Program-made: the position numbers and the translations under genes
Notes under the pieces: model-generated
Seen by the model: the letters and a program-made list of their open reading frames with translations, nothing else
Told to the model about the DNA's origin: nothing
The model's database searches: none
Source of the DNA: an uncultured Pelagibacteraceae bacterium
GTDB taxonomy: Bacteria > Pseudomonadota > Alphaproteobacteria > Pelagibacterales > Pelagibacteraceae
Reading direction: 5' to 3'
Assembly: GCA_902520335.1 (NCBI GenBank)
Contig: CABYNS010000002.1
Span: forward strand, 1-64,000
DNA length: 64,000 bases
Shown: piece after piece, positions 1,987 through 5,264 of the stretch
Layout of the letters: each line of letters starts with the position of its first letter
How positions within the stretch are numbered: position 1 is the first letter of the stretch

Positions 1987-2037
1987 ATATAGTTATTTAA
2001 CTTATTTATTGACTTTTTGAAGCTCTATTATAGTTTG

Positions 2038-2140
2038 TGGTAGTTTCCGCAAAAACATTAAATTTGCGGTGTCTTTGGAAACAAAGAGATCGACACTAGT
2101 CAGCGAGGGTTCGCCCACTAGTGCGATTACTGCTGTGTGT
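2038..2140 (+). ncRNA. Structured RNA leader upstream of ffh (candidate 'ffh' motif)
   Basis: Three hairpins can be drawn by eye on the plus strand. P1 is CCGCAAA (2047-2053) with TTTGCGG (2063-2069), 7 perfect pairs. P2 is TCTTTG (2072-2077) with CAAAGA (2082-2087), closing a GAAA tetraloop. P3 is ATCG-A-CACTAGT (2089-2100) with ACTAGTG-CGAT (2117-2127), 11 pairs with one bulged A, capped by an inner GCGA/TCGC stem. A weak -10 (TATTAT, 2026-2031) would start transcription near 2038. The GNRA loop favours the plus strand. It lacks the GGAAG/AGCA core of SRP RNA. From memory, a motif named after ffh was reported in a structured-RNA screen of Pelagibacter; I could not verify that. Ends are approximate. 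Confidence 0.75.
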
Positions 2141-2147
2141 AATAAAT

Positions 2148-3506
2148 ATGTTTGAAAATTTAACAAATAAATTTGAGGAAGTTTTTTCCTCTCTAAAAAA
2201 AGTCCCATCACTTGATGAAAATCAGGTTGATGAGGGATTGAGAGGAATAAGACAAGCTTTATTAGAAGCTGATGTGTCTCTTGAGGTTGCTAAAGATTTT
2301 ATTGAAAAGGTTAAACCAAAAGCATTAGGTCAAGAAATTATTAGATCAACATCACCTGGTGATATGGTGGTAAAGATTGTTTATGATGAATTAGTTAATC
2401 TTTTAGGTGAAAAAAATAACGATGTAAATTTAAATGCAGTTCCACCAGTGCCAATGATGCTCGTCGGGCTACAAGGTTCTGGTAAAACAACAACAACTGC
2501 TAAACTTGCGAGATATCTAGAGAATACAAAAAAAAAGAAAGTAATGATGGTCAGTTTAGATATTTACAGACCAGCCGCTCAAGAGCAGTTAAAATCTTTA
2601 GGTGAACAAAATAATATATTAACTCTTCCAATAATTGAAGGTCAACAACCCAGTGATATTTGTCAAAGAGCAATTAGTGCAGCAAACTTGAATGGCGCAG
2701 ATATTATCTTATTCGATACTGCTGGTAGAACACAAATAGATTTGCAGATGATGAGTGAAATTAAACAAATTGAAAATGCCATTAAACCTGCGGAGACGTT
2801 TTTAGTTGCTGACTCTCTCACTGGACAAGTAGCTGCATCAGTAGCAAAAGAATTTAATAATACAGTAAATTTATCCGGAATTATTTTAACAAGGGCAGAT
2901 GGTGATGCGAGAGGCGGGGCTGCTGTAAGTATGAAATTTGTTTCACAGGTTCCAATTAAATTTTTAGGTATTGGGGAAAAGATCGAAAATCTTGAAGTTT
3001 TTCATCCAGATAGAATTGCAAATAGAATTCTTGGGATGGGAGATATTGTTTCTCTTGTTGAAAAAGCAGCCCAAGATCTTGGGGAAGAAAATATAAAAAA
3101 AACAGAGGAAAATTTAAAAAAAGGACAATTCTCAATGCAAGATTATTTAACTCAACTGAGACAAATGAAAAAAATGGGAGGGATTGAAGGCATCATGTCT
3201 TTCATGCCAGGAGTTTCAAAGGTTAAATCTCAAATGGATGCTGCGGGTATTGATGAGAGTGTTATTACAAAAAATGAGGCTATAATTTTATCAATGACTA
3301 AAAAAGAAAGAGAGAACCCAAAAATAATTGATGGTTCCAGAAAAAAAAGAATTGCTAATGGCTCAGGAACTGATCCAGCCACTATCAATAAATTGTTGAA
3401 ACAATTTAAAATGATGTCTGAAATGATGAAGAAGATGTCAAAAGGAAATCTGAAAGGTATGTCTGATAAAGGAATACCCCCAGAATTATTTAATCAATTA
3501 AAATAA
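2148..3506 (+). CDS. ffh: Signal recognition particle protein Ffh
   Basis: SRP54 homologue that binds signal sequences and 4.5S RNA and partners with FtsY. The start is ATG 2148 (452 residues), because the upstream in-frame GTG at 2121 falls inside the RNA hairpin and would add a non-homologous extension. An N-terminal helical bundle (1-90) is followed by the GTPase domain (P-loop GLQGSGKTTT near 107; DTAGR; TRADGDARGG) and a methionine-rich M domain from about residue 300, with clusters such as MMSEMMKKMSKG near the end. It heads the ffh-rpsP-trmD-rplS operon. No clear Shine-Dalgarno precedes the ATG, so the structured leader may govern initiation. Confidence 0.97.
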   Translation: MFENLTNKFEEVFSSLKKVPSLDENQVDEGLRGIRQALLEADVSLEVAKDFIEKVKPKALGQEIIRSTSPGDMVVKIVYDELVNLLGEKNNDVNLNAVPPVPMMLVGLQGSGKTTTTAKLARYLENTKKKKVMMVSLDIYRPAAQEQLKSLGEQNNILTLPIIEGQQPSDICQRAISAANLNGADIILFDTAGRTQIDLQMMSEIKQIENAIKPAETFLVADSLTGQVAASVAKEFNNTVNLSGIILTRADGDARGGAAVSMKFVSQVPIKFLGIGEKIENLEVFHPDRIANRILGMGDIVSLVEKAAQDLGEENIKKTEENLKKGQFSMQDYLTQLRQMKKMGGIEGIMSFMPGVSKVKSQMDAAGIDESVITKNEAIILSMTKKERENPKIIDGSRKKRIANGSGTDPATINKLLKQFKMMSEMMKKMSKGNLKGMSDKGIPPELFNQLK

Positions 3507-3518
3507 AAAGGAGAGTAA

Positions 3519-3971
3519 ATGTTAAAATTAAGATTATCTAGAGGTGGCACAAAAAAGAGGCCTGTTTATAAGGTTGTTGTAGCTGACAGTCGATTTGCTA
3601 GAGATGGTAGATTTATAGAGAAAGTAGGTTTTTTTAATCCATTGTTACCAAAAGAAAAAAAAGAAAGAATTGGATTAGAGGCTGAGAGAATAAAATATTG
3701 GTTGGGTCAAGGTGCACAACCTACAACAAGAGTAGCTAGAATTTTAGGTGAGAATGAATTGATGCCTATGCCTGCTAATGGAAATAACCCACAAAAAGCA
3801 ATTCCAAAAAAAGATAGAAAAAAAGAAGGTTCGGAAGAAACTAAAAAGGAAGAGTCTCCAAAGGCAGATGCTGCTCCAGCTGGAGAAGCTAAAAAAGAGG
3901 AAGCGCCAAAAGCAGAAGCTAAAAAAGAGGAAGCGCCAAAAGCAGAAGCTAAAAAAGAAGAGAACAAATAA
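3519..3971 (+). CDS. rpsP: 30S ribosomal protein bS16 with a long charged tail
   Basis: Small-subunit protein needed for 30S assembly. Residues 1-80 are the canonical bS16 fold, beginning [14 protein letters not shown], with the family's RDGRF and GFFNP motifs. The remaining roughly 70 residues are a Lys/Glu/Ala/Pro-rich tail made of repeated [10 protein letters not shown] units, making the protein 150 residues against about 80-90 for the core. The tail DNA holds an exact 30-bp tandem duplication. A strong Shine-Dalgarno (AAGGAGAG) precedes the ATG, 12 bp after ffh. The usual next gene rimM is missing; trmD follows directly. Confidence 0.97.
3891..3950 (+). repeat. Exact 30-bp tandem repeat, two copies, inside rpsP
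   Basis: Two identical 30-bp units (3891-3920 and 3921-3950) are followed by a partial third copy. Each unit encodes ten residues of the [10 protein letters not shown] type, so length changes by whole units keep the reading frame. It is a likely site of slippage or copy-number variation between strains. Confidence 0.95.
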
Positions 3972-3985
3972 AGTAAAGGATATTA

Positions 3986-4672
3986 ATGTTGCAAGCTCAA
4001 GTATTTACACTTTATCCAGATATTTTTCCTGGGCCTTTAGGAAAAGGTCTTTATGGAAAAGCAATGTCTAAAAAAATGTGGAGTTTGAATGTGATAAATA
4101 TTAGAGATGCAGCTATAGACAAACATAAAACAGTTGATGATACTCCTTACGGTGGTGGAACAGGTATGTTATTAAAACCTGATGTTTTAGCAAATTCTAT
4201 CGATCAAAACATAAATAAAGGAGATAGGATTTTGTATCTTTCACCGAAAGGTAAAGTATTTAATCAAAAACTTGCGCAAGATCTATCATTAGAAAAATCT
4301 TTCTCATTAATTTGTGGTCATTTCGAAGGTGTTGACGAGAGAGTATTATCCACAAGAAATATTGAAGAGATTAGTATAGGAGATTATGTATTGTCAGGTG
4401 GAGAAACTGCTGCGCTAGTTGTACTTGATAGTGTATTGAGACTTTTACCTGGAGTCTTAGGGAATGATAAATCAGCTTCAGAGGAAACTTTTGAAAATGG
4501 CCTTTTGGAGTATCCACAATATACCAAACCCCAGATTTGGGAGGAAAAATCAGTTCCAGATGTGTTATTATCTGGTGATCACGCTAAAATTAAAGACTGG
4601 CGTTTATCTCAATCTGAGGCTATAACACGCGACCGAAGACCAGATTTGTGGCATAAATATAAGAAGATTTAA
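3986..4672 (+). CDS. trmD: tRNA (guanine-N1-)-methyltransferase
   Basis: SAM-dependent SPOUT methyltransferase that makes m1G37 in tRNAs and so prevents +1 frameshifting. The 228-residue length is normal. The N-terminus has the TLYPDIF motif, then GGGTGM, and the trefoil-knot SAM site with [14 protein letters not shown] and [10 protein letters not shown]. The C-terminus ([16 protein letters not shown]) is the tRNA-binding part. It follows rpsP by 14 bp with an AAAGGA ribosome site. In most bacteria rimM lies between rpsP and trmD. Confidence 0.97.
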
Positions 4673-4688
4673 TTTGTTAAATATAAAA

Positions 4689-5264
4689 ATGAAAACAATA
4701 GAAGAAATAAACCAAAATAACGTTAAAAAAATTCTTTCTGAAAAAAAGATCCCTGATTTCTTTCCTGGTGATGTTGTTAAAGTTGGTGTCAGAATTACAG
4801 AGGGAAAGAAAGAGAGAATTCAATATTTCGAAGGTGTTTGTATAGCTAAAAAAAGTAGAGACATTAACTCCTCTTTTACTGTTAGAAAAATATCTTTTGG
4901 AGAAGGTGTTGAAAGAACTTTCCCGTTGTATGGAACTGTTATTGACTCAATCAAGGTAATTCGTTCAGGAAAAGTAAGAAGAGCTAAACTGTATTATCTA
5001 AGAGATAGAACTGGAAAATCTGCGAGGATCGCTGAAAAAATAAGAAAAAAAATTGGTATTGATATTGACGTTAAGCCTGAGACTGTTACTGAAGAAAATC
5101 TAGCGCCAGTTGAAAAAGAAAGTGCACCAGAATCTGCAAAAGAGGTTACCCCAACTGTAGAGCCTAAAAAAGAAGAAACCCCAAAAACAGAGATGAAGAA
5201 AGAGGTGCCCAAAGCTGAAATTAAAACTGAAAAAAAACTTGAAAATTTACAGGAAAAAAAATAA
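4689..5264 (+). CDS. rplS: 50S ribosomal protein bL19 with a charged C-terminal tail
   Basis: Large-subunit protein at the 30S-50S interface. ATG 4689 gives 191 residues beginning MKTIEEIN, which fits the family; a TTG at 4674 would add five residues. The core spans about residues 1-115 ([10 protein letters not shown], the [10 protein letters not shown] strand, the [11 protein letters not shown] motif, and [19 protein letters not shown]). About 75 further residues form a Lys/Glu/Pro/Thr-rich tail resembling that of bS16 three genes upstream. It is the last gene of the ffh-rpsP-trmD-rplS block, 11 bp before leuC. Confidence 0.96.

Follow-up and report, generated by a model that had tools for sequence, protein, structure and literature searches.

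The ffh gene of an uncultured member of the Pelagibacteraceae (SAR11) raises the question of what a strongly folded RNA does in front of the gene for the SRP protein Ffh. The control of Ffh levels in cells is poorly understood, and Meyer et al. (2009, PMC2704228) state that neither transcriptional nor translational regulation of Ffh had been described. The original prediction, which was made on a stretch of 64,000 nucleotides (referred to here as the window), pointed to a candidate RNA from Pelagibacter named for ffh and proposed a cmscan comparison with Rfam. The comparison returned the family RF01793 (ffh) at positions 2079-2132 with 54.4 bits against a gathering cut-off of 35, covering model positions 1-52 of 52, and no other Rfam family exceeds its cut-off within the 64-kb window. 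RF01793 is indeed the RNA meant there. It is described from Pelagibacter as one hairpin with a bulge and two invariable cytosines, located upstream of ffh and beside dapF, detected in metatranscriptomes and with no known function (Meyer et al. 2009, PMC2704228). As this description dates from 2009, the element itself is already known and not new. The open-licence literature yielded neither a function nor a printed mechanism for it.

The RNA in the window shares with RF01793 the same hairpin (P4), the same site before ffh and the same two conserved cytosines: P4 ends 24 nt before the ATG of a confirmed ffh gene on the same strand, C2101 and C2116 are both present, and the stem covaries in an alignment of 87 rows. 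The Rfam model, however, spans only P4 with 15 nt upstream and 7 nt downstream. What is added here is a promoter signal, two further hairpins (P2 and P3), a U-tract in many relatives and its absence from SAR11, a pair of exclusive folds and a wider presence in the class.

Operon and genomic context

In the window dapF and ftsY lie on the minus strand while ffh, rpsP, trmD and rplS lie on the plus strand (Table 1). The gene for the SRP receptor, ftsY (noted at 245-1986 on the minus strand), and ffh are thus divergent, with dapF and the leader between them. The ATG of ffh lacks a Shine-Dalgarno sequence, just as the original prediction had it, and across SAR11 a Shine-Dalgarno-like word precedes ffh in 9 of 51 loci by a strict and 15 of 51 by a loose definition. 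The same genes recur downstream of the element elsewhere. From a scan of named genomes, which returned 68 stretches, many of them chance matches in other phyla, 29 were chosen by hand and 20 of these have Ffh. S16 follows in each of the 17 loci whose sequence continues for more than 2 kb, while TrmD was found in 13 of the 20 and L19 in 10. One locus (L149) has no L19 match in the 3.4 kb after TrmD. The gap between rpsP and trmD in the window is only 14 nt and therefore leaves no rimM between them. Both bS16 and bL19 carry long C-terminal extensions rich in Lys, Glu and Ala, and the extension of rpsP holds repeats.

Table 1. Features of the ffh leader and its operon in the window
Feature	Position	Strand	Evidence
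Predicted sigma-70-like promoter	TTGACT 2009-2014, 16-nt spacer, TAGTTT 2031-2036	+	Conserved TTGAC; hexamers by reading
P2 hairpin	CCGCAAA 2047-2053 with TTTGCGG 2063-2069	+	Paired in 94.6% of cells (56 SAR11 sequences); double changes at 2/7 pairs
P3 lower extension	CGGU 2067-2070 with AUCG 2089-2092	+	RNAalifold consensus; columns 33/54/79 change together
P3 upper hairpin	TCTTTG 2072-2077, loop GAAA, CAAAGA 2082-2087	+	Double changes at 6/6 pairs; 93.6% of cells paired
P4 (Rfam ffh hairpin)	2094-2123	+	RF01793 match; 99.8% paired cells in 87 class-wide sequences
P4 outer stem	2094-2100/2117-2123	+	
P4 conserved C·C mismatch	C2101, C2116	+	Both columns invariant in 87 rows of alignment A2
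P4 neighbouring position pair	A2102·C2115	+	
P4 inner stem	2103-2106/2111-2114	+	
Tail between P4 and start codon	2124-2147	+	Occupies place of U-tract and UUUGG of many other Alphaproteobacteria
ffh (SRP protein Ffh)	2148-3506	+	PF00448, PF02978, PF02881
rpsP (bS16)	3519-3971	+	PF00886
trmD	3986-4672	+	PF01746
rplS (bL19)	4689-5264	+	PF01245

Structure of the SAR11 leader

The original prediction described three hairpins which correspond to P2, the upper part of P3 and P4, the last of these pairing CACTAGT with ACTAGTG and, around a bulged A, GATCG with CGATT. All three lie where they had been placed and covary in SAR11, and the compensatory changes on which the prediction had been staked are present, with 113 double-change cells in an alignment of 56 SAR11 sequences compared with 37.5 in shuffles. 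This alignment (A1) was drawn from 62 distinct SAR11 segments, from which six near-copies were removed by hand to leave 56, and its related sequences do not count as independent events; across it, 94.0% of the cells of the three-hairpin structure pair. In the window the region 2036-2160 folds better than its shuffles (-38.2 kcal/mol, z -3.46), as does the Rfam match at 2079-2132 (z -4.71). Folding energies here and below come from a thermodynamic model, and the start site, too, is a prediction.

Two further pairings were rejected. The outer extension of P4 (GATCG/CGATT) is poorly kept, with one pair unpaired in 20, another in 17 and two more in 9 of the 56 sequences. For a helix between the 5' end and the tail (P1), matched sequences slightly beat permuted ones in non-SAR11 loci (33/5000) but not in SAR11 (792/5000). 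This test is confounded by base composition. A control of upstream sequence against tail is also lopsided (36/3000, 125 non-SAR11 loci), and the 5' strand of P1 probably lies upstream of the predicted start site.

The original prediction also held that the leader could switch between mutually exclusive pairings, which proves right in kind and wrong in detail. The letters of the competing helix it put forward, GTGTC (2069-2073) with GACAC (2092-2096), are present, but among 56 relatives the helix shows no double change (0), and its scores are reached by every one of 500 shuffles. The exclusive pairings that do covary are those of the 3' arm of P2 and the base of P3, which have CGG (2067-2069) in common, so that a long P3 excludes the base of P2. 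RNAalifold applied to the 56 SAR11 rows picked this long P3, with its base of CGGU and AUCG making use of the CGG of the P2 arm. Columns 33, 54 and 79 of the alignment read G-C-G in 47 of 56 rows, A-U-A in 8 and G-U-G in 1; a single column thus covaries with both of its partners, one base keeping P2 and P3 pairing alike. On a tree of the SAR11 ffh coding DNA (55 rows, as L128 has no ffh for the tree) the A-U-A type requires at least two changes.

The two folds are close in predicted energy at the moment when P4 has just been made, with -27.4 kcal/mol for the P2 fold and -26.8 for the long-P3 fold, 0.6 apart, if transcription of the window starts near 2043. Once the tail extends to 2128 the P2 fold is favoured (-33.0 vs -27.4), as it is over 2043-2150 (-34.1 vs -30.1), and the tail pairing behind this advantage is poorly conserved among the 56 SAR11 sequences. 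P2 and P3 overlap by at least 2 nt in 45 of 52 SAR11 and in 27 of 67 non-SAR11 loci, some of the latter probably by chance. Clear overlaps at CGG are seen for example in L003, L005, L008, L009 and L023, while L030 and L075 have a short P3 that is separate from P2. The overlap is a feature of SAR11 and some others and not of the class, and therefore cannot be a general switch.

P4 across Alphaproteobacteria

The part of the leader that is common to the class is P4. A second alignment (A2), which covers P4 and the tail in 66 non-SAR11 and 21 chosen SAR11 sequences, has standard pairs in 99.8% of the cells of its 11 stem pairs and double changes at 10 of the 11. At one pair 23 cells are U-G, which pair only on the plus strand and would read A·C on the other; these wobbles together with the promoter signal indicate that the plus strand is the one transcribed into the structure. 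The mismatch is C·C in 67 of 67 non-SAR11 and 51 of 53 SAR11 loci detected by a finder whose score favours C·C, and in 57 of 59 new loci detected by one that gives C·C no advantage. The position pair next to it varies in the 67 non-SAR11 loci (A·C 29, C-G 16, A·A 7, G-U 6, G-C 5, U-A 3, U·U 1), and so does the loop, while the stem forms a closed hairpin. The upstream parts of the leader differ between groups. One locus, L033, yielded no P4 core.

A covariance model built from A2 (R1) detects P4 in 148 of 240 alphaproteobacterial genomes at E 0.01, a count that is not independent as the same genomes supplied most of the model rows; the Rfam model finds it in 82 of the 240 at the looser E 0.1. 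A fair test is provided by 60 new loci outside the R1 training set, which are the better-scoring of the unused matches; 11 unused genomes with weaker matches (E 1.1e-4 to 0.003) were left out, as was a further weak match in G238. Ffh lies downstream on the same strand in 59 of these 60 loci, which argues for action in cis; in 58 it is within about 75 nt of the match and in L286 at 519 nt, and L316 is the one locus without Ffh. In a scan of 299 genomes across the phylum all 72 genomes that match at E 0.001 belong to the Alphaproteobacteria, and at least 14 alphaproteobacterial genomes have no match. The element is present in 281 of 297 genomes of one family (that of G444, presumed to be Rhizobiaceae) and, by the Rfam model, in 131 of 147 genomes of the order to which the window belongs; such presence counts are lower bounds, as the stricter filters that Infernal applies in large scans lose weak matches. 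A further 16 weak or repeat RF01793 places entered none of the counts; seven of the 16 (L210, L211, L213, L215, L219, L223 and L224) lack any sign of ffh and resemble chance matches. Dongia mobilis, Oceanibaculum pacificum and Oleispirillum naphthae are among the named carriers in which Ffh lies downstream, and we take them to belong to Rhodospirillales groups. For the Rhodospirillales, Meyer et al. (PMC2704228) reported no carriers.

Promoter, tail and U-tract

The predicted promoter would set the transcription start near 2043. TTGAC occurs 55-130 nt upstream of P4 in 57 of 57 SAR11 loci and in 63 of 67 and 44 of 59 other loci, compared with about 2% of control windows. A scan with a generic promoter consensus did not list the proposed promoter of the window and gave no excess in the region (2 found, 1.4 expected).

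Downstream of P4 the non-SAR11 loci have a U-rich tail at a fixed spacing with a consensus of about GCGNUUUNNNUUUGG. A run of four or more T within the first 10 nt after P4 is found in 30 of 66 non-SAR11 loci, where 300 draws of a null gave a mean of 2.8 and a maximum of 7, and in 23 of 59 new loci, so that 53 of 125 non-SAR11 loci, under half, possess it. In SAR11 the run is seen in 1 of 50 loci (null 5.3). The window has a stable hairpin between the predicted promoter and the first gene, the outer stem of which is G-C at only 3 of 7 pairs, and no U-tract directly after it. The terminator-like U-tract of the relatives and its absence from SAR11 had escaped the original prediction. The median distance from the end of P4 to ffh is 46 nt in non-SAR11 loci, 35 nt in the new loci and 24 nt in SAR11; among non-SAR11 loci it does not differ by T-run (Mann-Whitney p 0.31), and the 337 nt of L137 are probably due to a missed start, a GTG lying nearer.

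A conserved UUUGG stands at +10 to +14 after P4 in non-SAR11 loci, 3' of the U-tract, for which no pairing partner was found. A pairing of this motif with the C·C region was rejected for lack of covariation. No antiterminator was found that holds across the class, and pairing between a P4 arm and the tail shows no covariation. A hairpin within the tail (P5) was likewise rejected, with a mean z of -0.13 in 66 non-SAR11 and +0.72 in 54 SAR11 loci. Among the 66 it falls below -3 only in L005 and L009, where a long hairpin in the tail (14 mismatch-free pairs in L005 and 11 in L009) takes in part of the 3' arm of P4 and therefore excludes P4. Neither of these two loci has a U-run.

Published RNAs at the same site

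An RNA has been reported from the corresponding place in Sinorhizobium meliloti. Listed as an sRNA, sm5/SmelC778 is 115 nt long (3522269-3522383) and occupies the gap between dapF and ffh; a sigma-70 promoter is assigned to it and a Rho-independent terminator is predicted for it (PMC2573895, PMC2873474). Four loci of the presumed Rhizobiaceae (L359-L362) have TTGAC 101-102 nt before the model match and a U-run after P4. Counted by hand, they span about 109-115 nt between the predicted start and the last position of the U-rich tract, which fits the published 115 nt. This agreement in geometry suggests that sm5 is the same element, although the published passages available do not tie sm5 to the ffh motif. 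An 'ffH leader RNA' was detected by RNA-seq in Bartonella bacilliformis (PMC7717549). In Mesorhizobium huakuii 7653R the predicted sRNA MH_s5 is annotated as RF01793 ffh in an intergenic region labelled Pb (PMC5596092), and it is perhaps a plasmid copy away from the chromosome.

Proposed mechanism and alternative explanations

As in the original prediction, the best reading is that of a leader acting on its own operon. The RNA would be a cis-acting 5' leader of ffh-rpsP-trmD-rplS, widespread in Alphaproteobacteria, which starts from its own predicted promoter just before P2 and probably folds in the order P2 and P3, then P4. A protein or some other effector may bind at the C·C mismatch of P4. 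The anatomy of P4 and the U-tract in many non-SAR11 species is that of an attenuator resembling an intrinsic terminator, at which RNA polymerase may either stop and release a transcript of about 110-115 nt or read through into ffh; the published S. meliloti data support such termination. Promoter, leader hairpins and a terminator-like hairpin with U-tract before the first gene liken many of the relatives to known intrinsic-terminator attenuators. The element differs from these in the conserved C·C of its stem, in that no antiterminator was found class-wide, and in SAR11 by the missing U-tract. In SAR11, where the U-tract is absent, P2, P3 and P4 are under pairing constraint and a median of 24 nt separates P4 from the start codon, control would probably be exerted at translation initiation or mRNA stability, the translational step being suggested by this distance alone. 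The overlap between the bases of P2 and P3 may act there as a switch between the two covarying folds, which leave the P4 stem uninvolved. Taken as a whole, attenuator-like in many Alphaproteobacteria and probably near translation initiation in SAR11, this reading is held with slightly better than even confidence.

If the leader is an attenuator, protein targeting and ribosome components would be tuned together by one small hairpin in much of a large bacterial class, and SAR11 would illustrate how a streamlined genome keeps a sensor and changes its output; SAR11 kept the folded RNA and lost the terminator-like signal present in many relatives. The model makes specific predictions, namely a stop at the U-tract and a dependence on the C·C mismatch. 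In a bolder version, which is doubtful in its entirety, the class-wide attenuator would couple the supply of Ffh to that of bS16 and bL19 by way of a single effector, which recognises one C·C in a terminator hairpin. SAR11 would have swapped the output by dropping the U-tract and keeping the sensor hairpin, now read by means of two mutually exclusive folds close to the start codon. In that case the effector would be either an RNA-binding regulator of a novel type or an already known operon protein with a new site.

An alternative is autogenous feedback, in which one of the operon's products (Ffh, bS16, bL19 or TrmD) would attach to P4 at its C·C mismatch and reduce the operon's expression. Such feedback would name the sensor of the attenuator-like leader rather than replace it, and it is a serious candidate that falls short of even probability. 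The hairpin is kept beside ffh, rpsP comes next wherever there is room for it, and a conserved internal mismatch in a covarying stem resembles a protein site. The leader likewise resembles the bL19 leader (RF00556) and other ribosomal-protein leaders in standing before an operon with ribosomal protein genes, but RF01793 alone exceeds its Rfam cut-off in the window. Ffh recognises the symmetric loop and GGAA tetraloop of helix 8 in SRP RNA (4.5S). Mimicry of SRP RNA by P4 was rejected, as these helix 8 features are absent when P4 is read beside the SRP RNA candidate, a separate locus with 34.3 bits (under the cut-off of 40). Complementarity to the SAR11 SRP RNA is not above that of shuffles (-42.4 vs a mean of -40.4), which speaks against the feedback. 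A ribosomal-protein leader may instead mimic the rRNA site of its protein; of the rRNAs for such a comparison the assembly has a partial 16S, and no 23S was found in it.

A leader that merely stabilises or insulates the 5' end of the mRNA, without regulation, would account for three stable hairpins at the 5' end and for the lack of a known ligand or condition, but the conserved C·C, the U-tract of many relatives and the two exclusive covarying folds exceed the needs of a stabiliser and make this explanation improbable. Slightly more improbable still is a trans-acting sRNA that derives from the ffh leader and acts by pairing with the mRNAs of other genes. The records from S. meliloti and B. bacilliformis as an sRNA would fit it, as would the conserved UUUGG of the tail, for which no pairing partner was found; against it, nearly every matching genome has a single match beside ffh, and the conserved part is a closed hairpin with a variable loop. 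A metabolite riboswitch, finally, would explain a structured leader with a conserved internal element but is very improbable, given that this element consists of a small hairpin with one mismatch, that the upstream parts differ between groups in a manner unlike a ligand pocket, and that the operon is not metabolic.

Variant loci

The element occurs once in nearly every matching genome, the exceptions being G007, G080, G238, G912 and G939. Three matches are reported for G912. In G939 three copies of P4 lie 690 nt apart on one contig (C11, 2272-3704), which may represent an assembly repeat or a real amplification. In Hyphomicrobium sp. CS1BSMeth3 (L173) the element is located about 790 nt upstream of the Ffh match, far beyond its distance in the other loci compared, and something has therefore been inserted between the element and ffh.
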